From the IMG/VR virus record IMGVR_UViG_3300035698_007038, positions 1 to 47,204 of that record: 47,204 nt of DNA, one strand, 5' to 3'. The notes below the pieces were generated by a model, which was not told the origin of the DNA, did no database searches, and was given only the letters and a program-made list of their open reading frames with translations. Source of the DNA: a virus. The position numbers and the translations under genes were made by a program. Below are positions 1 through 47,133 of this stretch, one piece after another. The number at the start of each line of letters is the position of its first letter. Position 1 is the first letter of the stretch.

Positions 1-150
1 GTACATGTATATAACATATATATATATATAATATGAGGCACATGTATATATATAATATATATATATAATATAACGTACGTATGTACATGTATATATATAT
101 ATATAATATATAACGTACGTATGTACGTATATAACATATATGTTTATAGT
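1..150. repeat. AT-rich simple-sequence terminus with short direct repeats
   Basis: Almost pure TA-rich sequence. A 16-bp unit (TAACGTACGTATGTAC) occurs at 71-86 and again at 111-126, exactly 40 bp apart. An 11-mer, ACATGTATATA, occurs at 3-13, 40-50 and 85-95. The opposite end of the window (47160-47204) is similar TA/ATT sequence. This may be the centre of a divergent intergenic or origin region in a circular map, or simply the low-complexity place where assembly stopped. No gene is seen here. Confidence 0.6.
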
Positions 151-656
151 TTATAGTTTACTGTATACACTATACCATGCTGTACTTCGTATATGCCCTG
201 TCATACTCCACTACACTTCACCATTACCTGTGACACTTTACCGTGACACTCGTGACACATAGTCTATATCCATACTATTACCTATGCTTAGTACGTATGT
301 GTACTACATGTGGGTACTATGTATTAGACAATAGCCTATGATCATCATGATATAACCCTGTACCTGCGTTATATAAACAGTCAACGCTGCATACATATGT
401 CATAAAACAAGGGCATTGGTCATAATATGCATGGGGGGTATGGTATTTTAATTTGATTTACTAGGCACGTTCTATGTACACTACGTTGTGTGGGGGTATA
501 TATTTATTTAGGTGCGGGGGGACCCCAAACATTTAGGCCGATGCGTAGGCAAGGCCGGGGACCCTAAGCACATCATTTACAGCGATTTTGTAAGGGGTGT
601 ACGGTAAAGCAACTATCCGGGTTCCCCGGTAAGTTCAACTTGTGAGGAGAGAGATT
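151..656. other. Noncoding region with GC-rich island and hairpin
   Basis: No convincing gene. GTGACAC occurs three times in 29 bp (230-236, 243-249, 252-258). A GC-rich stretch at about 512-575 contains runs of G and C and two GGCC sites, unlike the AT-rich flanks. A perfect 5-bp hairpin (CCGGG-TTC-CCCGG) at 617-629 lies just upstream of the first small ORF. The region could hold a packaging or replication signal or leader RNA; none can be named from sequence alone. Confidence 0.4.
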
Positions 657-1074: not shown

Positions 1075-1722
1075 ATGATGAAAAAAGGACTATTAATCCT
1101 AGTGTTAGCTATCTTTAGCTTCACTTCGATAGGGGCTAGTGGCAACCTGCTAGTAAAGAAGAATCCAACATATGGTAACGTATATGTACTGCATTCGCAG
1201 GTTAAACAACCAGGTGAATATCGAAGACTGATACATAGATTGCAATCAGCAAACAGTGGCGAAGTAGTTTACATCATCCTGTACAACAATCGTGGAGGAC
1301 ACGTAAGTAGCTTAATAGCGGTAGGAAACGCGATTCGAGATTCAAGAGCACAAGTAATTGTGGAAGGAAGAGGACTGGTAGCTAGCGTAGCTGCTCTTTT
1401 ACTGTTCCAAGGTGATATCGCAGTAATTAACCCTAACTCTAAGATCCTATTTCATAACTTTAGGTTTCCTAGTGGTGTACTAAAGAAAAAGTGGATTGTA
1501 CCTAGTGTTAATAATCAAAATACTATGAGAAAGAGACAGGTATGGAATAATACCCAGTACTGGTACCAACGAACCCACGTAAAACAGAAGTTGACTACGC
1601 GACAATGGAACAAAGCAATACGAGGTGGTGATGTTATTGTTCGAGGCGGTCAAATATGCCAGAAACAAGAACAAATTAAAAAAATGAAGAACGGGGGATG
1701 TATAGTAAGGGGAGTAAAGTAG
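1075..1722 (+). CDS. Exported ClpP-fold (S14-like) serine protease paralogue
   Basis: The 215-aa protein starts with a signal peptide (MMKKG, a hydrophobic core to about residue 18, then small residues and a possible cleavage near 21-23). The body shows the ClpP pattern: NNRGG at about 71-75 (oxyanion strand), GLVASVAAL with Ser104 where ClpP has its nucleophile, and ILFHNF with His127 where ClpP has its catalytic His. Two C-terminal cysteines (about 195 and 209) and a terminal C-x-V-R-G-x-K motif match the paralogue at 43743-44387, where Ser104 and His127 fall at the same positions. The cysteines suggest a periplasmic disulfide. ClpP is normally cytoplasmic and works with an AAA+ unfoldase, so an exported form would act alone. 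The substrate is unknown; peptidase activity is inferred only from the conserved residues. Confidence 0.7.
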   Translation: MMKKGLLILVLAIFSFTSIGASGNLLVKKNPTYGNVYVLHSQVKQPGEYRRLIHRLQSANSGEVVYIILYNNRGGHVSSLIAVGNAIRDSRAQVIVEGRGLVASVAALLLFQGDIAVINPNSKILFHNFRFPSGVLKKKWIVPSVNNQNTMRKRQVWNNTQYWYQRTHVKQKLTTRQWNKAIRGGDVIVRGGQICQKQEQIKKMKNGGCIVRGVK

Positions 1723-1867: not shown

Positions 1868-2602
1868 ATGAAAGAAAAGTTTAGAGAAAGATTGGTAGAC
1901 TTGGTGTTAGCCAAAAGTGAGGTTATAACCGGCCATTTGGCGGACTTCGAAGTACTGAAAGAACGAATAAGGCCTGGAGATGTACTTGTTTCTTATGAAT
2001 GTAACCGTATAGGAAGAGTAATCAACAAGTTGTCCAACAGTCCTTGGACCCATTGCGGCCTATGCTTAGGAACATCCGACCTGATAGAAAATATAGAAAC
2101 CAGGGCACTGGTCAAGGAACATTACGAAGGAAACAAAGGGGATACGTTGATCATAGAGGCTAACCTAGCTTCAGGAGTGAAAATATACCCTTTAGATAAA
2201 TATAAAGGTGAGCATGTGCGGATATGCCGACCAAAAGGACTAGGTAGTCGAAAACTACAAAAAGTGTTGGATTTCGCGGTCCATACGGTAGGACAAGAGT
2301 ATGACGTAGTACATGTCTGGGATTTATTACTATTCCTAACCCTACCCTTTAAATTATTACCGAACAAAACTACGACACGACTATTTAGTGTGAAAGATCC
2401 CGAATCACTACGTGATATATGTTCTCACATGATAGCCAGCGCATTTGCTTCGGTTAATTTCCCCATCATGCCTTTGCCCACGTTGGCATCGGACGGAAAG
2501 ATATTATTCGACGATAAACCGTGTAAACTCATTTTACCTAAGGATTTTGAGGAATCACCGTATTTTGACATCATTAAATGTCCTCCAGCGGACAAAATTT
2601 AA
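1868..2602 (+). CDS. NlpC/P60-like (permuted papain-fold, YiiX-type) protein
   Basis: The 244-aa protein follows a GGGGG-rich ribosome site (about 1857-1862). The motif GDVLVSYE at about 37-44 followed by SPWTHCGLCLG with His62 is typical of circularly permuted NlpC/P60 or YiiX-type proteins, in which His precedes Cys. The Cys candidate is in RDICSHMIASAFA at about 185. Family members act as peptidoglycan amidases, peptidases or acyl thiolases. There is no signal peptide. It sits just upstream of the holin and endolysin, so a role in cell-wall or envelope attack is plausible but not shown. Confidence 0.6.
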   Translation: MKEKFRERLVDLVLAKSEVITGHLADFEVLKERIRPGDVLVSYECNRIGRVINKLSNSPWTHCGLCLGTSDLIENIETRALVKEHYEGNKGDTLIIEANLASGVKIYPLDKYKGEHVRICRPKGLGSRKLQKVLDFAVHTVGQEYDVVHVWDLLLFLTLPFKLLPNKTTTRLFSVKDPESLRDICSHMIASAFASVNFPIMPLPTLASDGKILFDDKPCKLILPKDFEESPYFDIIKCPPADKI

Positions 2603-2702: not shown

Positions 2703-3107
2703 ATCGGTAGTATATTAAGCATCCTTGCCGGTCCGTTAGTGGCCGTAGTGCGCAGTCTCTCAGGAATCTTGCGTGATCGCTATGATAAATCAAGAGAGCT
2801 CCAATTTATGGAGCATGAAAGAAGAATGGCAGTAGAGACAAGACTTCGTGAGCTAGCACTGGACAAATCGTCCAAAGACTCACTTTGGGCACTCGAACAA
2901 ATTAGGCGATCCGATAAGTGGATGAAGCGGGTATCTTTCGTGCTTCTTTGGACCCCACTGATACTAGGAGCATTCTTTCCGAATGCCATCAAGGCTTATT
3001 TCGATAACGTTATGGCAGCGGTACCAGATTGGTATATCATGATCTTCGGAGGTATGATGATGGCAGTTTGGGGAATTCGTGAGCTATTTAAGTTTTGGGG
3101 AAAATAA
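2703..3107 (+). CDS. Holin-like membrane protein (GTA-type 3TM holin), non-AUG start
   Basis: The first standard start in this frame is a GTG at 2739, but it has no ribosome site. The frame is open back to 2679. A strong GGGGAG (2689-2694) sits 8 nt before an in-frame ATC at 2703, giving an N-terminus (IGSILSILAGPLVAV) that supplies a hydrophobic segment. Then come an amphipathic, charged middle (about 35-80) and two hydrophobic segments near the C-terminus (VSFVLLWTPLILGAFF and WYIMIFGGMMMAVWGI). This layout resembles the gene-transfer-agent 3TM holin family. It lies immediately upstream of the endolysin, which is consistent. The AUC start is an inference; GTG 2739 is the conservative alternative. 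Confidence 0.6.
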   Translation: MGSILSILAGPLVAVVRSLSGILRDRYDKSRELQFMEHERRMAVETRLRELALDKSSKDSLWALEQIRRSDKWMKRVSFVLLWTPLILGAFFPNAIKAYFDNVMAAVPDWYIMIFGGMMMAVWGIRELFKFWGK

Positions 3108-3602
3108 TTGAAATGGAAACGAAGACATGGATTAGTGATATCGAAACCCAGGATTATTCAACCTTACCGGGTGATTTTACATCATACGGGTGGGAGTTCG
3201 GTAAGTGGGGCAGTTTCGACACTTATTCGTCGCAAACTAGGATATCATTATATCATTACGCGCGATGGCCATATACACGAATTAGTCCCCGCGAGCAGGA
3301 AAACATTCCATGCCCGTAGGAACAATGTAGGTACTGTAGGAGTATCCTTTGTTGGGGGAGGAAGAGCAGGTTGGGTAAACGAAATGCAGATAGATACATG
3401 TGTTAAATTACTACGTATCTTAAGGCATGACTACCCATCAATCAAAGAGCTTTCTGGACATAAGCATGTAGATGCTAAAGGGAAAATAGATCCCAGATTT
3501 CCAGGAGAACCAGTGAATGGGATAGATTGGGAGATCGATAGTGGGTACATGAACCTGATAGCGAATGAGACTGATCTTAAATTTATATCTAAACAGGGGT
3601 AA
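3108..3602 (+). CDS. Endolysin: N-acetylmuramoyl-L-alanine amidase (Amidase_2/T7 lysozyme-like)
   Basis: The 164-aa protein begins with TTG directly after the holin stop codon, with GGGGA just upstream. The zinc-amidase pattern is visible: ILHHTGG (His25/26), GYHYIITRDG, HARRNN with VGVSFVGG, and GHKHVDAKGKIDPRFPG, which supplies the later His and the Lys/Asp region. Known family members cut the bond between muramic acid and L-alanine of peptidoglycan. There is no signal peptide, so release through a holin is expected and fits the gene before it. The length is close to T7 lysozyme. The T7-type role of inhibiting RNA polymerase is unlikely because no phage polymerase is seen. Confidence 0.88.
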   Translation: MKWKRRHGLVISKPRIIQPYRVILHHTGGSSVSGAVSTLIRRKLGYHYIITRDGHIHELVPASRKTFHARRNNVGTVGVSFVGGGRAGWVNEMQIDTCVKLLRILRHDYPSIKELSGHKHVDAKGKIDPRFPGEPVNGIDWEIDSGYMNLIANETDLKFISKQG

Positions 3603-5488: not shown

Positions 5489-6932
5489 TCAAATCGGTAC
5501 ATTCTTTCCTGACAAGGGAGAGTTTCGACGAGAGCTTTATCCCAAACAACTAGCGTTCTTTAAAGCAGGTGCAAGATATAGACAGCGAGCTATGATTGCA
5601 GCTAACCGTTCCGGTAAATCCCTAGCGGGAGGAATCGAGATGGCATACCATGCTACCGGTCACTACCCACATTGGTGGGAAGGACGTCGATTCACACATC
5701 CAGTTAACTGCTGGGCGGTGGGCGTATCTAATATACAGACCAAAGAGGTATGCCAGCATATCCTAGTAGGTAGCTTTGTAGATAAGGGCACAGGATTAAT
5801 CCCCAAAGACGACCTAGATCCTAAATGTGTTAGTCGGGCAGGTGTGCCTGAAGCTATAGATACTATTCGTGTTAAGCATTACACCGAGGGCGTCTTCGAC
5901 GGATACTCGGCAATTACTTTTAAATCGTACGAACAAGAACGAGAAAAGTTCCAGGGACATTCAGTACATGTTATATGGATGGACGAAGAACCAAAAAACC
6001 CCGGAATATATACAGAGTGTTTAACCCGAATAGCGACCACGGACGGTATGGTCTATTGTACGTTTACTCCCCTACTAGGCTTGTCAGACGTGGTCCTATC
6101 TTTTATGCCAGGAGGACGGCTACCCAAAGACGGTGTAGTTCGTGACTTAGTAACTGGTAAGCCTGCCCGTAAGTATATTGTTCAAATAGACTGGGAAGAA
6201 GTACCTCATATCAATGAAGATATGAAAGAAGAAATGTTATCCGCATACTTGCCCTACGAGCGAGATGCCCGGTCAAAAGGAGTACCTCAATTAGGTTCAG
6301 GTGCTATCTATCCTATATTAGAAGAAGAAGTGATAGTAGAGCCTTTTGAAATACCCCCACATTGGAAGAAGTGTTTCGGACTGGATGTAGGCTGGAATAA
6401 GACTGCAGCAGTATGGGGTGCGATTGATCCTAACTCGAACACCATGTACCTATACTCCGAGTTCTACCAAGGTAGACAAGAATTACCAGTATTAATGTCA
6501 GGCATACGAAGTAGAGGGGAATGGATTCCCGGCGTAGTTGACCCTGCAGCAGAGAAACTTATTAATCCCACAGACGGCAAAAGCTTGTATTCTTACTATG
6601 TGGACGAAGGAATGGAATTAGTACTAGCTAATAATAGTTTAGAGACAGGACTATTTAAACAATGGAATCTATTATCGAGCGGACAGTTAAAGGTATTTAA
6701 AACCCTGAATAACTGGCTGGGTGAGTTCCGTATATATCGTAGAGATGAAAACGGAAGGATCGTTAAAAAGGATGACCATTTAATGGACGCAACACGTTAC
6801 CTAGTTATGTCTGGAATGGACATAGCAATTAATGAAGAAGAAGCATACCAAGACGAACACTCTCTGCGAAATGATTGGCAGATTGCTCAAGATAAGATAT
6901 CTAGAGGTGCTGACCCAATGACAGGTTATTAA
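5409..6932 (+). CDS. terL: Terminase large subunit
   Basis: 507 aa. ATPase domain: Walker A AANRSGKS at about 64-71 and Walker B VIWMDEEP at about 188-195. The HATGHYPHWWEGRRF block and FKSYEQEREKFQGHSV are typical of one podovirus/siphovirus TerL lineage. Nuclease domain: FGLDVGWNKTAAVWG at about 320 and DDHLMDATRY near 465 carry acidic metal-binding residues. The start at 5409 inside terS is kept because the first 40 residues match the usual N-terminal extension of this family (the LYPKQLAFFKAG region). It powers DNA packaging into the prohead through the portal. Confidence 0.93.
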   Translation: MSLKESHKTKKELALLLAEKDQRKKYNQIGTFFPDKGEFRRELYPKQLAFFKAGARYRQRAMIAANRSGKSLAGGIEMAYHATGHYPHWWEGRRFTHPVNCWAVGVSNIQTKEVCQHILVGSFVDKGTGLIPKDDLDPKCVSRAGVPEAIDTIRVKHYTEGVFDGYSAITFKSYEQEREKFQGHSVHVIWMDEEPKNPGIYTECLTRIATTDGMVYCTFTPLLGLSDVVLSFMPGGRLPKDGVVRDLVTGKPARKYIVQIDWEEVPHINEDMKEEMLSAYLPYERDARSKGVPQLGSGAIYPILEEEVIVEPFEIPPHWKKCFGLDVGWNKTAAVWGAIDPNSNTMYLYSEFYQGRQELPVLMSGIRSRGEWIPGVVDPAAEKLINPTDGKSLYSYYVDEGMELVLANNSLETGLFKQWNLLSSGQLKVFKTLNNWLGEFRIYRRDENGRIVKKDDHLMDATRYLVMSGMDIAINEEEAYQDEHSLRNDWQIAQDKISRGADPMTGY

Positions 6933-6933
6933 T

Positions 6934-8991
6934 ATGAAAAAACTTACAAAGACTTTTAATATCGAATCTATAGTAAACCTTCCTAACATCGCAGATAAGA
7001 TGAGTGAAGAAGACTTACTAAGATTAGCAAATGAAGTACTAAACTCATTTGAGCATGATAAACAGAGTCGAAGTGGCTGGGAACGACTTACCGAGAAAGC
7101 CCTGGACCTAATAGAATTAAAACATGAGACTAAGCATTATCCTTGGCCAAATGCATCTAACGTCAAGTATCCCCTAGTATCCACGGCTGTTATTCAGTTT
7201 GCGTCTAGACAGATGCCTGAGCTGATCAAGAACGGTAAAGTAGCCCGGGTACAAGTAGTAGGTAGGGACGAGTCTGGAGAAAAGGCAGATAGGGCTCGAC
7301 GAGTAGGCACGCATATGTCGTACCAATTACTTCATGAAATGGAAGAATGGGAAGATGATCTGGACAAGATGTTACATATGTTAGCTGCCGTAGGTATAGC
7401 GTTTAAAAAGACTTATTATGATCCAATCAAAGAACGACCAGTTAGCGAGCTATGCTTATATGATGATATCTTCGTACATGATGATGTTAAGAGCTTGGAA
7501 GAAGCCCGGAGAGTAACGCATCGTTTCTTCATGCATAAAAATCATATCATGGAAAGAATGCGGTTAGGGATCTATAGCGAAATGGATTCAGACGAACTAG
7601 ACAGCGAAGCACTAGAATCCATGCAAGAAGATAGTGTGCACGAAATATTAGAACAACACAGATATATAGACTTAGATGGTGACGGTTACGAAGAGCCATA
7701 CATTGTATTAGTAGACAGAGACCTTCGTAAAGTATTACGAGTAGTAGCACGATATGACGAAGAAGACATAGAATATACGGAAGACGATAAAATATTAAGA
7801 ATTAAGCCAGTAGAGCACTTTACGGATTTCCACTTTATACGCTCTCCTCGGGGTAAGTTTTATAGCATTGGGTTTGGTCAATTGCTATACTCATTGAATA
7901 ATAGTGTAAACACAATCCTTAACCAATTAATAGATGCTGGTACTTTAGCGAATACGCAGTCCGGCTTCATCGATAAAAGGCTTAAGATTCCAGGTGGTGA
8001 TTTTAACATGGCTCCTGGACAACTGCAAAAGGTTAACTTATCTGCCATTGATGATGTAGGTAAGCATATACACATGATGCAGTTTAAAGAACCATCCAAT
8101 GTATTATTCCAGTTGTTAGGAACTTTAGTAGAAGCCACAAAAGAAGCGTCTAGTGTAAGTGATGCCTTGACGGGCCAGGAACAAGCACAAAACGTTCCGG
8201 CTACGACTATCCTAGCGTTAATTGAGCAGGGAACGAAAGTATTTTCCGCCATTCAGAAGCGACTATACAAGGGCATGAAAAAAGAGTTCAACAAACTATT
8301 CAGAATTAATAGATTATTTTTGGACAGAGAACTTTACTTTAGAATATTAGATGACGAAGCTGTAGTGCGACGAGACGATTATGAAGAAGCTGAACTTGAT
8401 GTCATGCCCGTAGCAGACCCCTCTATTTCATCTGACGCACACAGAATAGCCAGAACCCAGGCATTAATGCAATTGATGGGACAACCCGGAATCAACGATA
8501 GGGAAATTATGAAGAGATACCTGGAAGACATAGGTACTCCGAACGTAGATGCAATACTTCCACCTCCAAATCCGAACGAACCACCACCCTTAGAAGTCAT
8601 AGATAAGCAGTCGGAAATAGACGAACGAGGTAAAAAGCTAGTATTAGAAGCCCGCGCAATGGACCTGAGAGAACGTGCACAACGAATCGATGCTATGAAA
8701 ACAGAAGCTGAGATAGAAGAGTTGAGATCTAGAGCAGTGAAGGCACTGGCTGACGCTGAAGCAGCGGGCGTTAAGTCTGATATCTCTACCTATAAAGCAC
8801 TGGTCGATGACATGTCCGTTAGACTGGATGCATTAGCCTTAGCGAGAGATCCGGAATCTAAATTGAGTAATGCAGATGTTGAATCAATAACAGGAGATAT
8901 AACAGATGGGGACGACGAATTCGAGCCAAGAAGTCTATCAGTGGAAAAACCATCCAGTGACTCAGGTACTTCTTCGACTGATGGAGGATGA
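6934..8991 (+). CDS. Portal protein (P22-like)
   Basis: 685 aa, within the usual size of P22-type portals. N-terminal motif HYPWPNASNVKYPLVSTAVIQFASRQMPEL at about 70-100 (read as adjacent segments) is characteristic of podovirus portals. The central region has wing/stem motifs including FTDFHFIRSPRGKFYSIGFG and SLNNSVNTILNQLIDAG. A long charged helical C-terminus (about 570-650) matches a barrel-type extension. It forms the dodecameric ring for DNA entry and the tail docking site. It starts 1 nt after the terL stop. The last 86 bp overlap the next gene. Confidence 0.9.
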   Translation: MKKLTKTFNIESIVNLPNIADKMSEEDLLRLANEVLNSFEHDKQSRSGWERLTEKALDLIELKHETKHYPWPNASNVKYPLVSTAVIQFASRQMPELIKNGKVARVQVVGRDESGEKADRARRVGTHMSYQLLHEMEEWEDDLDKMLHMLAAVGIAFKKTYYDPIKERPVSELCLYDDIFVHDDVKSLEEARRVTHRFFMHKNHIMERMRLGIYSEMDSDELDSEALESMQEDSVHEILEQHRYIDLDGDGYEEPYIVLVDRDLRKVLRVVARYDEEDIEYTEDDKILRIKPVEHFTDFHFIRSPRGKFYSIGFGQLLYSLNNSVNTILNQLIDAGTLANTQSGFIDKRLKIPGGDFNMAPGQLQKVNLSAIDDVGKHIHMMQFKEPSNVLFQLLGTLVEATKEASSVSDALTGQEQAQNVPATTILALIEQGTKVFSAIQKRLYKGMKKEFNKLFRINRLFLDRELYFRILDDEAVVRRDDYEEAELDVMPVADPSISSDAHRIARTQALMQLMGQPGINDREIMKRYLEDIGTPNVDAILPPPNPNEPPPLEVIDKQSEIDERGKKLVLEARAMDLRERAQRIDAMKTEAEIEELRSRAVKALADAEAAGVKSDISTYKALVDDMSVRLDALALARDPESKLSNADVESITGDITDGDDEFEPRSLSVEKPSSDSGTSSTDGG

Positions 8992-9148
8992 GCGAGAACA
9001 CATGGTACAACACTTACTGAAGGGAGAAATCCAAAAGGACAACATAGGCAGTAAGAACTTCGCATTAGGTAAAATAGAACTGTTAGATGAGTTGTTAGAA
9101 GAAGAATTGTTTAATGATTTAATCGCAGGGATGGAGGATCTAATATGA
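8906..9148 (+). CDS. Hypothetical acidic helical protein (80 aa)
   Basis: A ribosome site GGAGA precedes the ATG, which lies inside the 3' end of the portal gene in another frame. The protein is helical and acidic (HPVTQVLLRLMEDEREHMV, LGKIELLDELLEEELFNDLIAG). Its stop overlaps the GroES start (ATGA). Small genes of this kind between portal and scaffold are common in related phages. Function not known; an assembly cofactor is possible. Confidence 0.65.
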   Translation: MGTTNSSQEVYQWKNHPVTQVLLRLMEDEREHMVQHLLKGEIQKDNIGSKNFALGKIELLDELLEEELFNDLIAGMEDLI

Positions 9149-9468
9149 AAAAGTTACCTTGGATACCAGTAGGCCATAGAATTATGGTTTTGGTAGACGA
9201 AATAGGTGAAGGTGTACAGAAAGATGGAGATATCATTCTTACCCATTCCACCGACGATTATGAACGGGAACGAGAGTTCCAAGAAGTAGGGACTGTAGTA
9301 GCCTTAGGCGAAACTGCATATAACTTAAGTCATCACGACGGCCCGTGGGTCGAAGTAGGAGACCACGTTTTATACAAGAAGTATGACGGCAAAAAGTTCC
9401 TGGACAAAGAAACGGGCAAACTCTATCGTATCATTAACGATGAGGATGTTATAGCGAAGACACCATAA
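9145..9468 (+). CDS. groES: GroES-like co-chaperonin
   Basis: 107 aa, slightly longer than bacterial GroES (about 97). The chaperonin-10 pattern is clear: IPVGHRIMVLVDE at the start, a mobile-loop-like segment GVQKDGDIILTHS with IIL where GroES has the IVL that binds GroEL, VGTVVALGE, WVEVGDHVLYKKYDGKKF and a C-terminal YRIINDEDVIAK. It would cap a GroEL ring. Phage co-chaperonins such as T4 gp31 let large capsid proteins fold. Here it sits between portal and capsid genes and has a phage GroEL partner encoded at 27864-29489 on the other strand. Confidence 0.88.
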   Translation: MKKLPWIPVGHRIMVLVDEIGEGVQKDGDIILTHSTDDYEREREFQEVGTVVALGETAYNLSHHDGPWVEVGDHVLYKKYDGKKFLDKETGKLYRIINDEDVIAKTP

Positions 9469-9481
9469 CAGAGAGGTGATT

Positions 9482-10408
9482 ATGTCTGAACAAGAAGATG
9501 GTTCCATTAAGGAACTAACCCCCACAGAGGGTGAAGAGAATATTACCGTACGGGATAATATTGAGGAAAATCCCCCCGAAGTAGCTGAAAAGTTACCGTA
9601 CGGGACAAAGGAATCAACTGACGGGGAACTCTCAGAAGTTGAAAAAGCCGCAACGGAACAGGGCTGGAAGCCCCCTGAGGATTTTCAAGAGGAAGATAAA
9701 GAGCCTGTATCTGCAGAAGAATTCTTACGACGAGGAGAATTATTTGATAAGATTAAAGAGCTCAAGAACCAAAACCGTAGGGAAACTAAACGATTAGCGG
9801 ACCAAGTCCATGAGCTGAGTGGACTAGTTAAAGATTCCAAGAGGCAAGGCTACGAGCAAGCCCTCCGAGACTTGAAAGAGAAACGTAGGACAGCTGTGGA
9901 AGAGGGTGATCTGGATGCCTTTGAAGAGATTGATAGCGAATATGCTAAGGTCTCAGATGAGTTATCAAGAGAAACTGTTCCCCGAAGTAGCGCACAACGG
10001 GATATCCCAGAAGCTGCTCTAGAGTTCCAGGACCGGAACCAAGATTGGTTTAACACGAACACAAATGAAAATTCAAATATGGTGAATCAAGCCATTAACA
10101 TAGATCAACACATGGCAGAATCAAAGCCATATCTCAGCGACGACCAGAGACTGGGCTTAGTAGAGAAAGAGATCAAGAGTTTATATCCACATAGATTTTC
10201 AAATCCTAATAGAAAAAGACCTGCAGCCGTAGAAAGCGCGTCTAAATCTGAAGCACGTCCTAGTGCGGGTAAAATTAGGTATGAAAGTCTAGATGATAGA
10301 CAGAAAGCGGCGTGCCAACGCTTCTTATCTTTAGATGAGAATCTCAAAGTAGAGGATTATATGAAGAGTTTAGAAGAAGGCATGCGTCTTAGAGGACAAC
10401 TTAAGTAA
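9482..10408 (+). CDS. Capsid scaffolding/assembly protein
   Basis: 308 aa from ATG 9482, chosen over an upstream GTG (9476) because GAGAGG lies just before it. Strongly acidic and helical. A disordered N-terminus rich in E, P and T is followed by the motif EKAATEQGWKPPEDFQ seen in phage scaffold proteins, a coiled-coil middle (about 85-165) and a basic helical C-terminus. Location immediately before the head genes supports the call. It should be removed from or absent in the mature head. Confidence 0.75.
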   Translation: MSEQEDGSIKELTPTEGEENITVRDNIEENPPEVAEKLPYGTKESTDGELSEVEKAATEQGWKPPEDFQEEDKEPVSAEEFLRRGELFDKIKELKNQNRRETKRLADQVHELSGLVKDSKRQGYEQALRDLKEKRRTAVEEGDLDAFEEIDSEYAKVSDELSRETVPRSSAQRDIPEAALEFQDRNQDWFNTNTNENSNMVNQAINIDQHMAESKPYLSDDQRLGLVEKEIKSLYPHRFSNPNRKRPAAVESASKSEARPSAGKIRYESLDDRQKAACQRFLSLDENLKVEDYMKSLEEGMRLRGQLK

Positions 10409-10419
10409 GAGGAATTGTC

Positions 10420-10854
10420 ATGACAAAAGAGAAGAAGGCTGATAAGCAGCCTGTTACAGACGACAACGACGCCACAGAGGCAAGACAGAGTAGGAAACGT
10501 CCTATTCGAGTGACTAGAGATCTTCTAGTCAATAAAGGACCTTTGCAGGTACCGGACTCCGTTCGTAAATCGGGTATGAAATATTACTGGATGAAAGACG
10601 GACCCTATCAATTTGAGAAGTATAATCGTTTAGGTTATGAATTCACAATGAATGATAAGGGAGATAAAGTTTCCGTAGGCCGTGCGGGAGAGATGCTGTA
10701 TTTATTAGAAATAGAACAAGATCTATATGACGAAATACAAACTCTTAAACGAGAACTCCTCCAAGAGAAATCCGAGGAGCGGCGTGGGATCACTAATCCC
10801 AGGAGACAAGGTTCTGCAGAAGGAATATTTGAAGATCGACTTATTGTTAAATAA
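10420..10854 (+). CDS. Hypothetical head-region protein (144 aa)
   Basis: A charged N-terminal 25 residues precede a compact region (RDLLVNKGPLQVPDSVRK, MKYYWMKDGPYQFEKYNRLGYEF) and a C-terminal helix (EIEQDLYDEIQTLKRELLQEK). It lies between scaffold and head proteins with its own AAGAGGA site. Proteins of this type are found at this position in related podoviruses. A role in head assembly is inferred from position only. Confidence 0.65.
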   Translation: MTKEKKADKQPVTDDNDATEARQSRKRPIRVTRDLLVNKGPLQVPDSVRKSGMKYYWMKDGPYQFEKYNRLGYEFTMNDKGDKVSVGRAGEMLYLLEIEQDLYDEIQTLKRELLQEKSEERRGITNPRRQGSAEGIFEDRLIVK

Positions 10855-10885
10855 TGTCGATTCATAATAAAAGGAGTGTTTAAAC

Positions 10886-11491: not shown

Positions 11492-11506
11492 TTAAGGAGA
11501 TATATT

Positions 11507-35414: not shown

Positions 35415-35415
35415 G

Positions 35416-40409: not shown

Positions 40410-40512
40410 CTTCTCCCCTTATTTCTTTGAAGCAATACCAGCAATAATCAAAAGTACCGCCCTCGCTTACCTCATACATTCTTCCGCATCTTTTACAAAG
40501 AGCCACGGCCAT
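40330..40512 (-). CDS. Small zinc-ribbon protein (60 aa)
   Basis: LCKRCGRMYEVSEGG and FDYCWYCFKEI give C-x-x-C...C-x-x-C, a zinc ribbon; the C-terminal half is strongly basic and aromatic (RIRFRDYFYNVIQKVRKSIR), so it may bind nucleic acid. It overlaps the polymerase start by 80 bp in another frame and touches the ClpP-fold gene upstream. Unknown function. Confidence 0.5.
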   Translation of the reverse strand: MAVALCKRCGRMYEVSEGGTFDYCWYCFKEIRGEDEKQVLRIRFRDYFYNVIQKVRKSIR

Positions 40513-41132
40513 TATTTCTTACTCTTGAAGTGTCGCTTAATACGCGCTGGTAATGTCTTCTCGTCATGACTGATATATACATCTTTATCGTCTTTAAGTT
40601 GTTGTAACTCTTTATCTGTTAAGAACGGTGCGGATAATACCTTTAAATGTCTATGAAAATAATCATAGAAGTGGTTGATTGCATCGCGCATCTCCTGTCC
40701 TTTCCCTCTCTCTCTTCCACTATAGTTATGGAACATTAAAAAGGTGCCGGGATTCATCTTCAGGCTCGATCCTGCCAACGAAATGATAGCTCCCATGCTA
40801 TAACACGGAGCATCTACAATAACATCTACGCCAGCCTTACATTCTTTCATCGCATTAATGATCTGAAAACCTGTACTCACACTGCCTCCGTAGTTGGCCA
40901 TATATAATCTAACATTATCTTTAGGACCTGCTGTTCTGAATACATTAAGTAAATCCACATACGCGAAGTTATTCTCAATAGACTCCGATAAATATATAGA
41001 CAGGTCTTGGAATTTCTTCTCGACTGCTATTATTTTATACTGATCGTCTAGGTCTAGTCCTAACTCACTATCTTCCCCTAATAGGTCCGTCATCTCTTTA
41101 CGCTTTTTCATAATAGATTGATCGTTTTCCAT
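40512..41132 (-). CDS. Cytoplasmic ClpP-fold serine protease
   Basis: 206 aa from ATG 41132, with GGAGG 9 nt upstream. YMANYGGSVSTGFQIINAM at about 78-95, then DAPCYSMGAIISLAG with Ser112 in the exact S-M-G-A context of ClpP, and FLMFHNYSG with His135. The following helical segment (about 140-175) and a basic C-terminus complete it. There is no signal peptide, unlike the two paralogues at 1075 and 43743. May process phage or host proteins; a prohead-protease role cannot be excluded although it is encoded among replication genes. Confidence 0.8.
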   Translation of the reverse strand: MENDQSIMKKRKEMTDLLGEDSELGLDLDDQYKIIAVEKKFQDLSIYLSESIENNFAYVDLLNVFRTAGPKDNVRLYMANYGGSVSTGFQIINAMKECKAGVDVIVDAPCYSMGAIISLAGSSLKMNPGTFLMFHNYSGRERGKGQEMRDAINHFYDYFHRHLKVLSAPFLTDKELQQLKDDKDVYISHDEKTLPARIKRHFKSKK

Positions 41133-42372
41133 CAAAACATACCTCCGATTTTATATTACGAGATAGGCCGGTGCCATCTCCGTCTAATTTATTTTTAGGA
41201 ACATGGACGTATCTAGTTAATGGATACTCCGGGTCCCTACCTATAGTGATAATAAACTCAGCCGCCGCTTGCTTAGCACTCCTGGAGAAATCCAACTGGT
41301 GCATTCCTATGTAATGTTGAAACCTGGCTTCTTGGGTCGAGTTGTCTTTCCATGTAACCGAACCATCGCATTGAGAGGACCCGAGGAGTGGACAAAAGTC
41401 TTTACTAATGTCTCTAATCTCACGATACAAATTCTTAAGTCTGATCACCTCTTGGTTTTTATTACCTCCGGGCAGTACGATATGATCTAACATATCGATC
41501 ACTATTAATTTGGCGTTATACTTTTCTGCCTTTTCTCTGATCATGTCAGGAGTATAGCCCACAGCATCAAATATCTTAATTCTATTTACGTCTCCGTGCA
41601 GTTTCTTAGTATACTTTTCATATGCATACGATTCGTTCTGTATTATGGTTTCATTATCCGTGTTTAAAACGGCGCACCATAACTGTGCCTGTACTCTATC
41701 TTCTGGTCCTTCGTTGTTGAACCATAGAACAGACCCCTCTTCTATTTGCTGCGCCATGTAGGCAGCTTCGCTAATCAAAAACTTACTCTTACCAGTATCT
41801 ACGTAAGCAGCGACGTAGCCAAAGTCTCCTGGTATTAACGGACCTATGCTTTTGTTCAGGCACCCCAGTCTCCACGACAGACCTTTACTTCTCTGAGCCT
41901 TAACGAATATATCTCCGAAATCATTAGATACGAAGTCAGATTCTGCTAATATCTCGGTCTCATCCACATATTCCTGTAGTTTCTTTCTAATATCCGCCAC
42001 AGCAAGTCCCGTATCGGACAATAAGTCTTTAATGGTGTCCTTAGCAGCCTCTTGCTTAAAGTGCTTCAGAACGCCTCTAATGAAGTCTGAGGAAGTATCA
42101 ACCGTTTCGTTGTGTAACCGTTCAAATATGACCGAGTATACCTTAGATTTAGTTTTATTTAGGTCCGGATGCTTTATCTGTTGGAACCAGGTATTAAACT
42201 GTTCTAAATCTATGGCTTCCACATCATCGAAGTCTTTGTAGTAAGAGCCTATGTCATCTAGAATAAGCTTAGTCTCATCTTGTAATACTTCTTCTCGTAC
42301 ATAGGTACGGTAGTTATTAAATATTTCTCGGCTATCTGTAAATAGTTTTAGCAATGTAATTTCGGTTATCAT
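41098..42372 (-). CDS. Replicative DNA helicase (DnaB/SF4-like)
   Basis: 424 aa from ATG 42372; an upstream extension was rejected because the ATG overlaps the stop of the previous gene (TAATG). The N-terminal helical domain to about 145 is followed by a RecA core: Walker A AAYVDTGKSKFLI at about 188-200, LWFNNEGPEDRV, Walker B KLIVIDMLDHI near 300, LLGSSQCDGSV with the sensor Gln, and a C-terminal DFSRSAKQAAAEFIITIGRD. It should unwind DNA at the fork with the separately encoded primase. Confidence 0.88.
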   Translation of the reverse strand: MITEITLLKLFTDSREIFNNYRTYVREEVLQDETKLILDDIGSYYKDFDDVEAIDLEQFNTWFQQIKHPDLNKTKSKVYSVIFERLHNETVDTSSDFIRGVLKHFKQEAAKDTIKDLLSDTGLAVADIRKKLQEYVDETEILAESDFVSNDFGDIFVKAQRSKGLSWRLGCLNKSIGPLIPGDFGYVAAYVDTGKSKFLISEAAYMAQQIEEGSVLWFNNEGPEDRVQAQLWCAVLNTDNETIIQNESYAYEKYTKKLHGDVNRIKIFDAVGYTPDMIREKAEKYNAKLIVIDMLDHIVLPGGNKNQEVIRLKNLYREIRDISKDFCPLLGSSQCDGSVTWKDNSTQEARFQHYIGMHQLDFSRSAKQAAAEFIITIGRDPEYPLTRYVHVPKNKLDGDGTGLSRNIKSEVCFDGKRSIYYEKA

Positions 42373-42542
42373 TAATGTACCCTTGTATCTAGTCCGAACT
42401 CTAGCACATCGTTGGGGCAATACACCGTTAGGCACAACTGACTATCTGTGAATTGTTTCACGGTATATGGAAATCCCATATCCTCAATTATAGATATAAC
42501 ATTGTCGAGAGTGGTATACTTGATGTGGTAACCATCGCTCAT
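42372..42542 (-). CDS. Small protein between primase and helicase (56 aa)
   Basis: Start at ATG 42542 overlapping the primase stop (ATGA). MSDGYHIKYTTLDNVISIIEDMGFPYTVKQ then a beta-like LCLTVYCPNDVLEFGLDTRVH. Coupled at both ends to replication genes; unknown function, maybe a replication accessory factor. Confidence 0.55.
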   Translation of the reverse strand: MSDGYHIKYTTLDNVISIIEDMGFPYTVKQFTDSQLCLTVYCPNDVLEFGLDTRVH

Positions 42543-43294
42543 TTTGTATAAGGTTTCAGTTTTTTCTGTATTTCGCTGTCGTATAAACATTTCGGATCTC
42601 GCTCTGTTACTACGTTACTTACGCAGGGCGTTAATAGGTTCAATTGTCTAAGTAATTTATTCGCTGCTTCCTGGCCCGGTGCATCGCTGTCCAGCCATAC
42701 TATTATATTATCATAGTTTGAAACTAATGTCAACATTTTATCTGTTTTTAAACTGGTTCCTATTAATGAAACTGCCTGACAGAATTCTCCAACCCTAATG
42801 GCACTTAACATATCTTCCACTAGTACTATGGTTTTAGTTTCGTAGTCTCCTTTTGACCAGAATAAACTATCCTTACTGCCTACTGTATAATATTTAGGAC
42901 TGTCGTGCTTGTCTGTGGCTCTGGCCTGGTAAAACTTCAACTCACCGTCTACATATGAAGGTAGTATTACTCTATTCTTAAGTACTACACCTTCGGTGTA
43001 AGTATTATATACGTATCCTATGTTATATTTATCCCGTAGATCAGCATAGATAGCGTGGGATAAGAGCCATTTATGTGCCTCTATAGGCATTCTTTTAGAA
43101 CATCCTGAAGGTAGACGTAGGTTCTGCTTCTCTTCGTCTCCTAAATCCATAAGTTCTGGGAAGAATGACTTACGGGGCCGTTTGCTGTGGCTAGTATGAC
43201 ATGAGTAACAATACGTATTATCCTCATATTCTGCCAGAGCATCTGACGATCCGCAGTCATCACACGGTTGATGGCTATTTACTAGTGCGCTCAT
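42539..43294 (-). CDS. DNA primase (Toprim, T7 gp4 N-terminal-like)
   Basis: 251 aa. Zinc-finger Cys at about 11, 14, 29 and 32 (CDDCGS...YCYSC), RNA-polymerase-like domain with NRVILPSYVDGELKFYQARAT, and Toprim acidic motifs: VLVEDMLSAIRVGE near 158-171 and WLDSDAPGQEAA near 200-211. The helicase half of T7 gp4 is encoded separately downstream, so the primase-helicase is split. Makes primers for lagging-strand synthesis. Confidence 0.88.
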   Translation of the reverse strand: MSALVNSHQPCDDCGSSDALAEYEDNTYCYSCHTSHSKRPRKSFFPELMDLGDEEKQNLRLPSGCSKRMPIEAHKWLLSHAIYADLRDKYNIGYVYNTYTEGVVLKNRVILPSYVDGELKFYQARATDKHDSPKYYTVGSKDSLFWSKGDYETKTIVLVEDMLSAIRVGEFCQAVSLIGTSLKTDKMLTLVSNYDNIIVWLDSDAPGQEAANKLLRQLNLLTPCVSNVVTERDPKCLYDSEIQKKLKPYTK

Positions 43295-43742: not shown

Positions 43743-44387
43743 CTATTTCGTCCCTCGTATAAAACAAGAGTCTGATCGTTCATGTATGACACGGGTCCTT
43801 AGCCGGTCCTTACATATACGGGATCCATTCACCGTAATGTTAGATCCATTTAACAAACGTTCCCACTCCTCCCCAGTCACGAAGGTAAATACCCTCGAGG
43901 CCTGATACCACGACAATGTCGCCGTGTAAGTCATAAACTTAAATAAACCTAATTTATTATTAGAGCCAGGTATAATTACTTGTCTGCCACGTTGATACCT
44001 TATGTTATGAAACAGTATTCTAGAGTCGTGGTTTATCTTAACAATGTCTCCCTGAAATACTAACAGTGCGGCGGCACTAGCGATAAGCCCATCGGCTTCT
44101 ATTATTACTGTAGCCTTTGATTTTTTTATCTCAAATGTTAGGGCAGCTAGTGTTCTGACATACCCTCCGTTATTATTTGTTACTACTATATATACAACAT
44201 CTTTTTTCGTACCGTTACGTAGGGCTACTATTAAGTCTTTGTACTCACCTATATTATATCCAATTATACGACTAATATAATATTTCTTACCCGTGACCTT
44301 GTCAGGTTTAACTGCCAGATCCGCCCGGGTCTGTAGGCTTAACACCAGGCTTAGCGTTACCACGACACTTACTAAGATCTTCTTCAT
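43743..44387 (-). CDS. Second exported ClpP-fold serine protease paralogue
   Basis: 214 aa. Signal peptide MKKILVSVVVTLSLVLSLQTRAD with probable cleavage after about residue 22. NNNGGYVRTL at 71-80, GLIASAAALLVFQGD with Ser104, RILFHNIR with His127: the same positions as in the protein at 1075-1722, and the same end pattern (IC...CFIRGTK). It is thus a true paralogue on the other strand and near the opposite end of the genome. Its ATG lies within the 3' end of the upstream coiled-coil gene (80-bp overlap). Confidence 0.7.
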   Translation of the reverse strand: MKKILVSVVVTLSLVLSLQTRADLAVKPDKVTGKKYYISRIIGYNIGEYKDLIVALRNGTKKDVVYIVVTNNNGGYVRTLAALTFEIKKSKATVIIEADGLIASAAALLVFQGDIVKINHDSRILFHNIRYQRGRQVIIPGSNNKLGLFKFMTYTATLSWYQASRVFTFVTGEEWERLLNGSNITVNGSRICKDRLRTRVIHERSDSCFIRGTK

Positions 44388-44622
44388 ACTTCTTCCTCAA
44401 CTTTCGTAGCTCGTATTGACTGCTATTATACTTACGCTTAAGATTATTCAAATCCATCACTGAATCTGCATACCGTTTCTGCGCTTCTTTCAAATTACCA
44501 TCTATTAAATGGTTATGTGTACTCAGGAACTCTATCTCATGTCTAAATTCATTGTTCTTGTGCACTGTGACGCCGGTCACTATCCCAAAAGCTACCGCCA
44601 CTACCATTAGGTACCTTTTCAT
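44308..44622 (-). CDS. Membrane-anchored coiled-coil protein, i-spanin-like (104 aa)
   Basis: Start at ATG 44622 with GGGGGT upstream. N-terminal helix (MKRYLMVVAVAFGIVTGVTV), a long heptad-like helix (HEIEFLSTHNHLI through LRKLRKKYEEDLSKC) and a Pro/Gly-rich tail. This is the shape of inner-membrane spanins (Rz-like). A partner lipoprotein may be the gene at 45373. It is far from the holin and endolysin, so the assignment is tentative. Confidence 0.5.
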   Translation of the reverse strand: MKRYLMVVAVAFGIVTGVTVHKNNEFRHEIEFLSTHNHLIDGNLKEAQKRYADSVMDLNNLKRKYNSSQYELRKLRKKYEEDLSKCRGNAKPGVKPTDPGGSGS

Positions 44623-44631
44623 ATACACCCC

Positions 44632-44802
44632 CTATATGACTCTTACCATCACTACAACGGCTATTAAAACGATTACTAGAAGTAACATCCCTCTCCTGTA
44701 AAGAGGCTGATGTCTATCCTCATTACTTTGTTTATGTTCTCTGACGTTGTCAGGATTAGGAACATACATACCGTCTTTCTCTAGTCTATAAAATCTTTTC
44801 AT
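44632..44802 (-). CDS. Small tail-anchored membrane protein (56 aa)
   Basis: ATG 44802, with GGAGGG 7 nt upstream (a GTG 15 nt earlier was rejected). Polar N-terminal 38 residues (KRFYRLEKDGMYVPNPDN) then a C-terminal helix (GMLLLVIVLIAVVVMVRVI). First gene after the minus-strand promoter at 44839-44866. Confidence 0.6.
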   Translation of the reverse strand: MKRFYRLEKDGMYVPNPDNVREHKQSNEDRHQPLYRRGMLLLVIVLIAVVVMVRVI

Positions 44803-44838
44803 CTTCTTACCCTCCACGTTTACTACACTCTCACTATC

Positions 44839-44866
44839 AGTATAGTCAACAGGGAGGATTTGTCAA
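44839..44866 (-). promoter_or_regulatory. sigma70 promoter, minus strand
   Basis: Reading the minus strand: TTGACA (44866-44861), a 16-bp spacer and TATACT (44844-44839). It overlaps the 3' end of the upstream small gene and would drive the exported ClpP-fold, primase, helicase and later genes. A second TTGACT overlaps the -10 region. Confidence 0.7.
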
Positions 44867-45069
44867 GTAATATCCTTATTATTTTCATCTGATTCGTCAA
44901 ATTCTTGATAATCTGGAGGCAAGGACTCCTCTCCTTTAGACTCTTTACGTTCTGCTCGGAACGCTGTATACGCTCTAAACTTAGCAACAGAGGCTGTGCC
45001 CATGATGGCCATCAAAGGTATGCCAAAGCCAATGAACGCCATACCTAAAAACATTTGAAACCCACTCAT
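44863..45069 (-). CDS. Small membrane protein with acidic tail (68 aa)
   Basis: GAGGA upstream of ATG. N-terminal helix (FQMFLGMAFIGFGIPLMAIMGTASV), then a basic stretch (KFRAYTAFRAERKE) and an acidic tail (EFDESDENNKDIT). Coupled to the next-upstream micro-protein. Unknown function. Confidence 0.55.
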   Translation of the reverse strand: MSGFQMFLGMAFIGFGIPLMAIMGTASVAKFRAYTAFRAERKESKGEESLPPDYQEFDESDENNKDIT

Positions 45070-45198
45070 TTATTCGTCCTCTCTGTATTTATCAACCAAG
45101 TATCTGAGGGCTCCGAAAATACCCGCAGTTACTACTACAATTACGTTGTACAACATCATTCCCAGGGCCACTGCCCAGGCCATTTCATATGTTCCCAT
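45070..45198 (-). CDS. Micro membrane protein (42 aa)
   Basis: MGTYEMAWAVALGMMLYNVIVVVTAGIFGALRYLVDKYREDE, given here only as segments: one long hydrophobic helix (about residues 6-31) and a charged C-terminal end. Start overlaps the previous stop (TAATG) and AGGAGAG lies upstream. Confidence 0.55.
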   Translation of the reverse strand: MGTYEMAWAVALGMMLYNVIVVVTAGIFGALRYLVDKYREDE

Positions 45199-45380
45199 TA
45201 TGCTCTCCTGTATATCTCTTCAATATATAATATTTCGTTCAACGTCTTTTGAGCATCAGCTGGTAATTGCTGAGGACTAGAGGTTGTATACATAACAACC
45301 CCCATCGTCAGAATACCAATCGATCCGAATACTAAAACATCTTTAGTGGACGCTCTTAGAATTTCCCGTAGGCTATTCAT
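45198..45380 (-). CDS. Small membrane protein (60 aa)
   Basis: Start at ATG 45380, overlapping the stop of the lipoprotein gene upstream (ATGAATAG). MNSLREILRASTKDVL then a helix (VFGSIGILTMGVVMYT) and a helical C-terminal part (LPADAQKTLNEILYIEEIYR). Unknown function. Confidence 0.55.
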   Translation of the reverse strand: MNSLREILRASTKDVLVFGSIGILTMGVVMYTTSSPQQLPADAQKTLNEILYIEEIYRRA

Positions 45381-45705
45381 TGTTTTCCTGCTGAATCTTT
45401 GCACATTCATATTCGCCAGGATTTCTCATTTTCACTTTAAACCCTGAAACGTCAGATTCTGGTAATCTCACAACTACGTTGTATCGCCTGTTTTTTTCTT
45501 CCCCTACCGGTGCTATCACTAACACTCGTTTACCATCATACTCAATGACGGCATCGCCATCAAATATACGGAATTTGGGAGTATAAACAAACATCTTACA
45601 AAATAATAATGTACCCTCTGGTTTACTGGGCTTTACCTTCTCTTTGAATACACTGCACCCGGCAATACTTAAGGCCACCAATGCAGGGACTATATACTTA
45701 ATCAT
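45373..45705 (-). CDS. Putative lipoprotein (110 aa)
   Basis: MIKYIVPALVALSIAGCSVF contains a lipobox (SIAGC; Cys17), so it is probably lipidated and anchored to the outer or inner membrane. The mature part is beta-rich (TLLFCKMFVYTPKF, DAVIEYDGKRVLVIAP, YNVVVRLPE) and has two further Cys. GAGGAG upstream. Could be an outer-membrane spanin or a superinfection-exclusion lipoprotein. Confidence 0.6.
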   Translation of the reverse strand: MIKYIVPALVALSIAGCSVFKEKVKPSKPEGTLLFCKMFVYTPKFRIFDGDAVIEYDGKRVLVIAPVGEEKNRRYNVVVRLPESDVSGFKVKMRNPGEYECAKIQQENNE

Positions 45706-45820
45706 CTTTATCGCTCCTCGTTAATAAAAAGGCTGCTAACCCTACCCAAGCAGCGATCACTACGGTCGCTACCACCAAATGTAAAAAGCTAAAAAGCTTA
45801 ATAGTTAATAATTCAATCAT
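45698..45820 (-). CDS. Micro membrane protein (40 aa)
   Basis: MIELLTIKLFSFLHLVVATVV then IAAWVGLAAFLLTRSDKDD: one or two short hydrophobic segments and a charged C-terminus. Start overlaps the upstream stop (ATGA) and its stop overlaps the lipoprotein start (ATGATTAA). Confidence 0.5.
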   Translation of the reverse strand: MIELLTIKLFSFLHLVVATVVIAAWVGLAAFLLTRSDKDD

Positions 45821-45984
45821 GACATACTCACCAATACAAAGGCTGTTGTAAGTATCAACAAGCCCAGTCCCATGTTTCTTAGATACCGTTTCTTACTGTT
45901 ATCATATACTTCCAATGCTAGTCTAACTCCCATTAGTATCATTCCCACTGCCATTATCACTTCCGGCGTTGTTAATGTTATCAT
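45817..45984 (-). CDS. Small membrane protein (55 aa)
   Basis: ATG 45984 with AGGAG 6 nt upstream. First hydrophobic segment (VIMAVGMILMGVRLAL), a basic link (YDNSKKRYLRN) and a second helix (MGLGLLILTTAFVLVSM): a probable hairpin in the membrane with a basic cytoplasmic loop. Overlaps neighbours at both ends. Confidence 0.5.
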   Translation of the reverse strand: MITLTTPEVIMAVGMILMGVRLALEVYDNSKKRYLRNMGLGLLILTTAFVLVSMS

Positions 45985-46147
45985 TTGCTGCTCCTAATGG
46001 TTGGGCTTCAAGTACTTTCTGCAGGTCGACATACATCTCCTCCAGAACTGCTGTCTCCTCCCTCAACTGATGGAGGTCCGTCGCAATTTTGTAAATCCAG
46101 TCCCGATTTAAGTTCATTTGTTTTGTCTGATCCACGTCGTATTTCAT
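45923..46147 (-). CDS. Small coiled-coil protein (74 aa)
   Basis: AAAGGAGA 6 nt before ATG 46147. Helical with heptads (IYKIATDLHQLREETAVLEEMYVDLQKVLEA in segments), ending in an Asn/Gly/Ser tail (NNAGSDNGSGNDTNGS). It overlaps the gene at 46008 by 140 bp and the one at 45984 by 62 bp, so three frames are used in one short stretch. Unknown function. Confidence 0.5.
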   Translation of the reverse strand: MKYDVDQTKQMNLNRDWIYKIATDLHQLREETAVLEEMYVDLQKVLEAQPLGAANDNINNAGSDNGSGNDTNGS

Positions 46148-46295
46148 AACCGTCTCCTTTGTATACATGCACAATACAATGTGCCTTCTCTTGTTTCACT
46201 ATTTTCCCTTTATTGAAGGGTTGGAAATGTTCTAAAGCTACCATGCCACCTATCACTAATCCTAAGAATACTACTAGTAAAGCTATATATTTCAT
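46008..46295 (-). CDS. Small membrane-anchored protein (95 aa)
   Basis: Start ATG 46295 just after the previous stop (TGATATG), with AGGAT upstream. N-terminal helix (YIALLVVFLGLVIGGMVAL), then a polar domain with three Cys (HCIVHVY, LQNCDGPP, VCRPAE), suggesting an oxidised periplasmic part. Overlaps the coiled-coil gene by 140 bp. Confidence 0.5.
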   Translation of the reverse strand: MKYIALLVVFLGLVIGGMVALEHFQPFNKGKIVKQEKAHCIVHVYKGDGYEIRRGSDKTNELKSGLDLQNCDGPPSVEGGDSSSGGDVCRPAEST

Positions 46296-46296
46296 A

Positions 46297-47079
46297 TCAA
46301 TATCCTGGTCGAGCAAAGCCACAGTTATATTTCACTGCAGGATCTGCTATTATTTCATGGCTACCATATTTACCGGCATTAGGTATTCTAAATACCATGA
46401 ACCGACTACTATTCGCCCTAATTGTTAAGTAACTCCAATCCACCCTACGAACATTCATTCCCAAAGGTCTTGGGTGAAAATAATCTACCTTAATTGTTAC
46501 TTTTTTGTCTCTGTGACTAGTGTTCTTAAAGGTACACGAAACTGTATCACCTGATCCATAATCGGCTGGCCTGTAGTATGGGTGAACAAAAGGCTGTGCT
46601 GCGGGCACACCTATACCCACACCAGGTGTTATAGCAGGTGGGTTTACTGTTACCTTAGTAACTTGTGTTTGTGTCTGACGTTGTCTCTGATGTACTCTTA
46701 CTGGAGGTCTATACCCAGGGACATACCTAGGAGTCATACGTGGAGCATACCGTACAGGCTGGGTGGGCACCATTGCTCCTACTAATTCTCCTCGTCTTCT
46801 CGTTTGGTGACGTCTAACGTGACTCGGCCTAACGTAGGTACGCCTAACATATCTCCGGTGTGGGGGACGTACGAAAGGCCGTACAGTAACACGGCCCGGG
46901 TACACCGCGGGATAAATAATTGGCCCGTGGTAAAATGGATCGGCACGTCGGTGGTTCGGATAAACGTGTATTGATGGACCAATACGCTCGATGCCTGGCC
47001 TAGTGCCAGCACAACCCGAAATGAATAGTGCAGCCCCAACCAACGCTGCCATTACGAAACCATATTTAATTAAAACCAT
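46297..47079 (-). CDS. Large Arg/Pro/Tyr-rich lipoprotein (260 aa)
   Basis: First gene of the minus block. Signal with lipobox (MVLIKYGFVMAALVGAALF then ISGC, Cys23). A very basic segment (about 60-140) rich in R, P, Y, V and H (RRYVRRTYVRPSHVRRHQTRRR) is followed by a C-terminal beta domain (about 175-260; SCTFKNTSHRDKKVTIKV, SSRFMVFRIPNAGKY). The Arg/Pro region resembles cell-envelope-binding lipoproteins; binding to LPS or peptidoglycan is a guess. Early position suggests an infection-time envelope protein, for example superinfection exclusion. Confidence 0.6.
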   Translation of the reverse strand: MVLIKYGFVMAALVGAALFISGCAGTRPGIERIGPSIHVYPNHRRADPFYHGPIIYPAVYPGRVTVRPFVRPPHRRYVRRTYVRPSHVRRHQTRRRGELVGAMVPTQPVRYAPRMTPRYVPGYRPPVRVHQRQRQTQTQVTKVTVNPPAITPGVGIGVPAAQPFVHPYYRPADYGSGDTVSCTFKNTSHRDKKVTIKVDYFHPRPLGMNVRRVDWSYLTIRANSSRFMVFRIPNAGKYGSHEIIADPAVKYNCGFARPGY

Positions 47080-47117
47080 AACTTTTACCTCACTGTTACT
47101 TACAGCTTATCATAGTG

Positions 47118-47133
47118 TGACATACATGTCAAG
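47118..47133 (-). promoter_or_regulatory. Possible promoter/operator before minus block
   Basis: An inverted repeat TGACAT-AC-ATGTCA (47118-47131) overlaps a minus-strand TTGACA (47133-47128). A TATGAT lies 12 bp beyond, too close for a standard spacer, so the promoter is uncertain. It could be a regulated start for the first minus-strand genes. Confidence 0.35.

Follow-up and report, generated by a model that had tools for sequence, protein, structure and literature searches.

Predicted exported ClpP-fold proteins of a podovirus-like phage and its relatives, and their possible role in the host envelope

The tailed, podovirus-like phage represented by IMG/VR record IMGVR_UViG_3300035698_007038 (listed as linear, with a terminase and an SU10-type portal) contains three ClpP-family genes, two of which very probably encode exported ClpP-fold proteins. 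ClpPs are common in phages, and ClpP is studied as a cytoplasmic chamber that receives its substrates from ATP-driven unfoldases. Altogether, nine proteins of the predicted exported type were found in seven phages, including the one described here, and the chances appear to be about even that they represent an ATP-independent, ClpP-like periplasmic peptidase belonging to an early envelope module of the phage. The coordinates in Table 1 refer to the window, that is, the whole 47,204-base stretch that was analysed. The two genes of interest are denoted the late copy (1075-1722) and the early copy (43743-44387).

Table 1. ClpP-family genes and neighbouring features in the window
Coordinates	Strand	Feature	Basis or remark
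1075..1722	+	Predicted exported ClpP-fold protein (late copy), triad Ser104/His127/Asp186, Cys195/Cys209	Profiles, alignment, AF2
1075..1143	+	Predicted signal peptide, approximately residues 1-21 or 1-23	Own N-terminal rule, not SignalP
1868..2602	+	C92 (YiiX/YaeF) amidase-like protein, next gene after 1075-1722	Seven Cys, no export signal
2739-3107	+	Probable holin	phrog_2524 (function unknown); label from hydrophobic stretches and position
3108-3602	+	Amidase endolysin	Profile matches
6934-12424		Portal/capsid genes	Not adjoining 1075-1722
40512..41135	-	Cytoplasmic ClpP, Ser-His-Asp, without export signal	phrog_1827, E 4e-39
42539..43294	-	TOPRIM primase, downstream of 43743-44387	Order conserved in L098, L099, L100
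43743..44387	-	Predicted exported ClpP-fold paralogue (early copy), Ser104/His127/Asn183, Cys192/Cys208	Boundary of early envelope genes and replication genes
44308..44628	-	Membrane-anchored coiled-coil-like protein; gene overlaps start of 43743-44387	Weak Rz-spanin match, E 0.006
44632..47079	-	Early envelope module, lipoproteins and small membrane proteins	Lipobox read by eye
46297-47079, 45373-45705	-	Lipoproteins of the early envelope module	Lipobox by eye
46008-46322, 45198-45410, 44863-45069, 44632-44817	-	Small membrane proteins of the early envelope module	

The late copy is the first gene of the plus-strand (late, lysis/structural) operon, with an AAAGG motif about 8 nt before its ATGATG start. 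The 215-residue product begins with MMKKGLLILVLAIFSFTSIGASG followed by NLL, in which two lysines precede an uncharged core with a mean hydropathy of 3.26, and a possible signal peptidase I site follows residue 21 or 23. The protein scores 31.8 bits against the Pfam CLP_protease family (PF00574; cut-off 20.2, E 1.7e-7) and its best PHROG is phrog_1827 (E 7.6e-15), which indicates that the ClpP match is not due to chance. The early copy encodes a 214-residue protein with 37% identity to the late one, including Ser104, His127 and both cysteines of the C-terminal region. It reaches 20.0 bits with PF00574, just below the cut-off (20.2 when scored together with its neighbours), and its best PHROG is also phrog_1827 (E 4.9e-17). 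The same PHROG is the best one for all nine exported members, the two of the window and the seven others; among the latter, PF00574 passes its cut-off for L099_2122, L100, L102 and L104 and fails for L098, L099_2733 and L097.

The ClpP fold that an earlier note on this DNA had proposed for the late copy is borne out by structure prediction. AlphaFold2, run on both exported copies as monomers with 21 aligned family members, yielded models with pLDDT of 90.5 (late) and 93.5 (early) and pTM of 0.83 and 0.85, respectively. All 50 PDB matches listed by Foldseek for the late-copy model are ClpP, only ClpP-type folds appear among the rows shown, and the top named matches in a viral structure library are phage Clp proteases. 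With VIA-align, this model superimposes on the ClpP in 6wrf with a Z score of 15.4 (rmsd 3.1 over 159 residues) and the early-copy model on ClpP 6cfd with a Z score of 14.8. The window proteins show no match to the SppA (S49) or NfeD1b profiles at E values up to 1; the relatives L100, L104 and L097 give weak, sub-threshold matches to NfeD1b. Given the export signal in both window copies, these proteins are best named ClpP-like rather than Clp protease subunits. Loss of unfoldase docking was considered as a distinguishing feature and dropped as uninformative: the positions of the hydrophobic pocket of E. coli ClpP are, by eye on the alignment, non-canonical in exported and cytoplasmic phage ClpPs alike.

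The prediction of export relies on a rule of our own rather than on SignalP, namely, that the net charge is not negative and that an uncharged 10-residue core with a mean hydropathy of at least 2 lies near the N-terminus. Under this rule, both window copies have the features of Sec export (n-region charge, hydrophobic core and signal peptidase I site), in agreement with the export noted earlier for the two paralogues. The rule is passed by eight of the nine exported members versus none of the 12 cytoplasmic relatives and none of 11 other ClpPs (10 from phages and that of E. coli); the difference between 8/9 and 0/23 is significant (Fisher p 9e-7), with the qualification that the nine were classed as exported after their N-termini had been seen. 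Shuffled exported sequences pass at a rate of 2-6%. A previous version of the rule was passed by seven of the nine, owing to its exclusion of proline around the cleavage position; the relaxed version gives eight. The failing member, L099_2122, lacks positive charge at its N-terminus. In two other members, L102 and L104, the cleavage site is unconvincing, and these proteins may stay membrane-anchored and uncleaved; the positive charge before the core implies that their domains should still face outward. A periplasmic location is thus predicted for the exported copies.

The placement of Ser104 and His127 in a ClpP context holds throughout the family: both residues are invariant in all 21 aligned members, and in the late copy Asp186 completes the triad. 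The aspartate is present in 19 of the 21, that is, in 12 of 12 cytoplasmic members, all of which are Ser-His-Asp, and in seven of nine exported ones, the exceptions being the early copy (Asn183) and L099_2122 (Phe). Each of the two phages with two exported copies, the window phage and L099, combines a complete-triad copy with an Asp-less one. Thus, the earlier description of two exported paralogous proteases fits the late copy in full, whereas the early copy, with its Ser-His-Asn arrangement, may not be an active protease alone. The cysteine pair noted near the C-terminus consists of Cys195 and Cys209, the only two cysteines of the late copy, both conserved in the early one. The pair is common to the window copies, L098 and both L099 copies; L100, L102, L104 and L097 contain a different pair, after the catalytic histidine. 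Cysteine numbers after residue 22 are even in nine of nine exported versus six of 12 cytoplasmic members. The L099 record also encodes, beside its lysis genes, a DsbD/CcdA-type membrane protein (DsbD_TM, E 9e-40) and a thioredoxin-like protein that has a leader and a CSYC (CxxC) motif (L201 5341-6000, 7455-7946); the two might constitute a thiol-disulfide pathway supplied by the phage to the envelope. The even counts, the pairs and these two genes make disulfides in the exported members plausible.

The family is not confined to the window phage. Whole-record ClpP-profile searches covered 42 of 77 contigs found by terminase and 40 of 80 found by PrkA; any ClpP match was detected in one of the 42 terminase (TerL) relatives and in 15 of the 40 PrkA relatives, five of which contain an exported ClpP; the exported type is absent from the majority of the relatives searched. 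The seven further exported members come from six viral contigs: L098, L099 (two in tandem), L100, L102, L104 and L097/L017. According to the contig names, L098, L099 and L100 originate from one metagenome, and L097, L102 and L104 from three others. This recurrence in related phages indicates that the family is real, albeit unusual. The set of two exported and one cytoplasmic member that the earlier note singled out as unusual is indeed encoded in one phage but is not unique to it: the L099 record, which is closed by a terminal repeat, combines its tandem exported copies with a cytoplasmic ClpP and thereby repeats the three-member arrangement. Other searches were less productive. Scans of viral contigs with single exported proteins returned no close relatives (in one case, only the contig of the query itself), the two-sequence profile A2 found nothing among viral contigs, profiles A7 and A8 returned only already known records, a genome scan with A7 yielded no relative, and tblastn of the L097 protein against 50,697 phage records gave no match. 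Phage records matching the late and early copies numbered 64 and 46, respectively; 10 records were examined, and an export signal is absent from all 10 of their ClpPs. The L097 contig also encodes, at 6007-6621, a protein that by eye looks like an HslV/proteasome-type N-terminal nucleophile hydrolase, with no Pfam match at E 0.01.

The gene order exported ClpP, TOPRIM primase, helicase, cytoplasmic ClpP, DNA polymerase A is the same in the window, L098, L099 and L100, and in all four it continues with PrkA, DUF444 and SpoVR. In L097, a T7-type primase-helicase is encoded two small genes downstream of the exported gene, which in L102 and L104 comes after SpoVR. The PrkA, DUF444 and SpoVR genes, the counterparts of the bacterial yeaG-yeaH-ycgB stress set, occupy 32630-37326 (minus strand) of the window, and many viral contigs carry all three. 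The 80 best bacterial relatives of PrkA that were retained are, by record title, nearly all from gamma- and betaproteobacteria, which we count toward a Gram-negative host. A GroEL-type chaperonin (Cpn60, E 3e-64) is encoded at 27864-29489 (minus strand).

In a tree of 32 sequences, the nine exported members form one side of a branch with modest support (72/63), a topology compatible with a single origin, with the very long branches of L097 and L099_2122 limiting the resolution. In the best tree, the early copy pairs with L098 (95/72), the late copy joins next (98/71), followed by L099_2733; a topology that forces the late and early copies to group is not rejected (p 0.105).

Within the minus-strand operon, signal- or membrane-type hydrophobic stretches are found in eight of the nine genes of the block 43743-47079, the boundary of which was chosen after the map had been seen, versus none of 19 in the rest, which places the early copy at the end of the early envelope module. 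The two exported genes do lie at opposite ends of the contig, as the earlier note remarked of the genome, but this probably reflects the point at which the contig was cut. A direct repeat of 127 bp occurs at the termini of the L099 record, in which the early (minus) and late (plus) operons diverge from one shared region; both ends of the window (1-300 and 47000-47204) consist of AT-rich TATATA repeats and are likely an assembly break. Taken together, these features suggest that the two genes are probably about 4 kb apart on the closed map, plus any missing stretch; for the window itself, the join of the two ends is extrapolated from the L099 record and the AT-rich termini.

From the computed fold, triad residues, export-type N-termini, conserved gene order and recurrence, we infer a scheme in which exported S14-like ClpP-fold peptidases would cross the inner membrane of a Gram-negative host by means of a Sec signal and thus reach the periplasm. 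The periplasm contains no ATP and a leader replaces the canonical N-terminus of these proteins, so their action should be independent of an unfoldase; the substrates would be peptides or already unfolded envelope proteins. The assembly would probably be a ClpP-like ring of subunits stabilised by an internal disulfide, with the late copy, which has the full triad, as the likely catalytic subunit, and the early copy functional only within a mixed complex or as a regulator, comparable to Listeria ClpP1. The position of the early copy at the join of the early envelope block and the replication genes points to an early take-over of the host envelope, by clearing or remodelling envelope proteins or by excluding superinfecting phages, which would be the role rather than lysis alone. 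A more specific and rather doubtful extension is an ATPase-free periplasmic Clp system, in which Ser-His-Asp and Asp-less subunits would form a disulfide-stabilised mixed ring early in infection while the third ClpP remains in the cytoplasm, so that proteolysis would occur on both sides of the membrane.

The main competing explanations concern function. The exported proteins could be pseudo-enzymes or scaffolds that retain the fold for binding, for instance, in superinfection exclusion or as an inhibitor of a periplasmic target. Loss of the aspartate in two of the nine exported members and the location in the early envelope block fit this notion, as do the known phage exclusion proteins that act at the envelope (P22 SieA, T5). 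Retention of Ser and His in all nine and of Asp in seven, across very divergent sequences, however, is more than a scaffold needs, and this possibility appears unlikely. A role as a lysis accessory, with the late copy and the adjacent C92, holin-like and amidase genes breaking envelope proteins at the end of infection, is prompted by the position of the late copy in front of these genes and by the overlap of the early copy with the weakly matching spanin-like gene. This seems quite improbable, given that the exported gene of the relatives resides in the early replication operon and that the L099 record (46,954 bases) and the interval between the early operon and the lysis genes of the L098 record (30,181 bases) revealed no late copy.

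Two further alternatives question export itself or the assignment to the envelope. That the hydrophobic N-terminus is an anchor from which the protease domain faces the cytoplasm could be suspected from L102 and L104, with their unclear cleavage sites; nevertheless, the positive charges before the core in eight of nine members predict the opposite topology (N-terminus in, domain out), and the even cysteine count in all nine also speaks against such an anchor, leaving it a very slim chance. A ClpP-type capsid (prohead) maturation protease, suggested by head maturation proteases among the weaker PHROG and NCBIfam matches, is harder still to credit: the window copies score 32.1 and 32.6 bits with NF045542 (ClpP-related head maturation protease) against a cut-off of 120, an export signal is present, and the gene is not next to the portal and capsid genes. 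If, instead, the periplasmic peptidase reading is correct, a recurring exported branch that keeps the triad would illustrate how the ClpP chamber can operate in an ATP-free compartment and would add an uncommon example of a viral protease directed against the bacterial envelope; the Asp-less copy in each of the two phages with a pair of exported copies would provide a natural test of the mixed-ring idea.

Among known systems, the closest are the cytoplasmic ClpPs of phages (phrog_1827; the 'ATP-dependent protease' of T5-like, Seunavirus and N4-like phages), which share the fold and the same Ser and His with the exported members and, in the eight aligned, show 18-22% identity; unlike the window copies, the ten examined contain no export signal and were not encountered within an envelope block. 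Bacterial ClpP (S14, PF00574) shares the fold (Z about 15) and the Ser-His-Asp order with the late copy, which differs in being predicted to be exported, in its low identity (12-18% over the aligned structure), in a longer segment after His127 and in the C-terminal cysteine pair. ClpP-like folds outside the cytoplasm are known in NfeD1b (1510-N) and SppA (S49); these are extracytoplasmic like the phage family but employ a Ser-Lys dyad in contrast to the phage Ser-His-Asp. COG3904 is a bacterial periplasmic ClpP-like group. A targeted literature search for exported or periplasmic ClpPs, and for phage ClpPs, retrieved no paper. The only strong match (E 7e-14) among 229 genomes is a gammaproteobacterial protein (L294 1399-2157, minus strand) that resembles the exported phage copies in its PF00574 match, hydrophobic N-terminal stretch and, by eye, Ser-His-Asn; unlike them, it is encoded on a bacterial contig, beside what by eye is a patatin-like gene. 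Accordingly, viruses may not be the sole carriers of exported ClpP-like proteins. For the pairing of complete and Asp-less copies, the counterpart is Listeria monocytogenes ClpP1/ClpP2; these are cytoplasmic, unlike the exported phage pair, and work with ClpX, and the mixed complex of the phage pair is proposed by analogy. In both cases, there are two paralogues of which one has Asn at the triad Asp position, and, as described for Listeria, ClpP1 has Asn in place of Asp172 and its triad is aligned to the active form only in complex with ClpP2 (PMC9765437).
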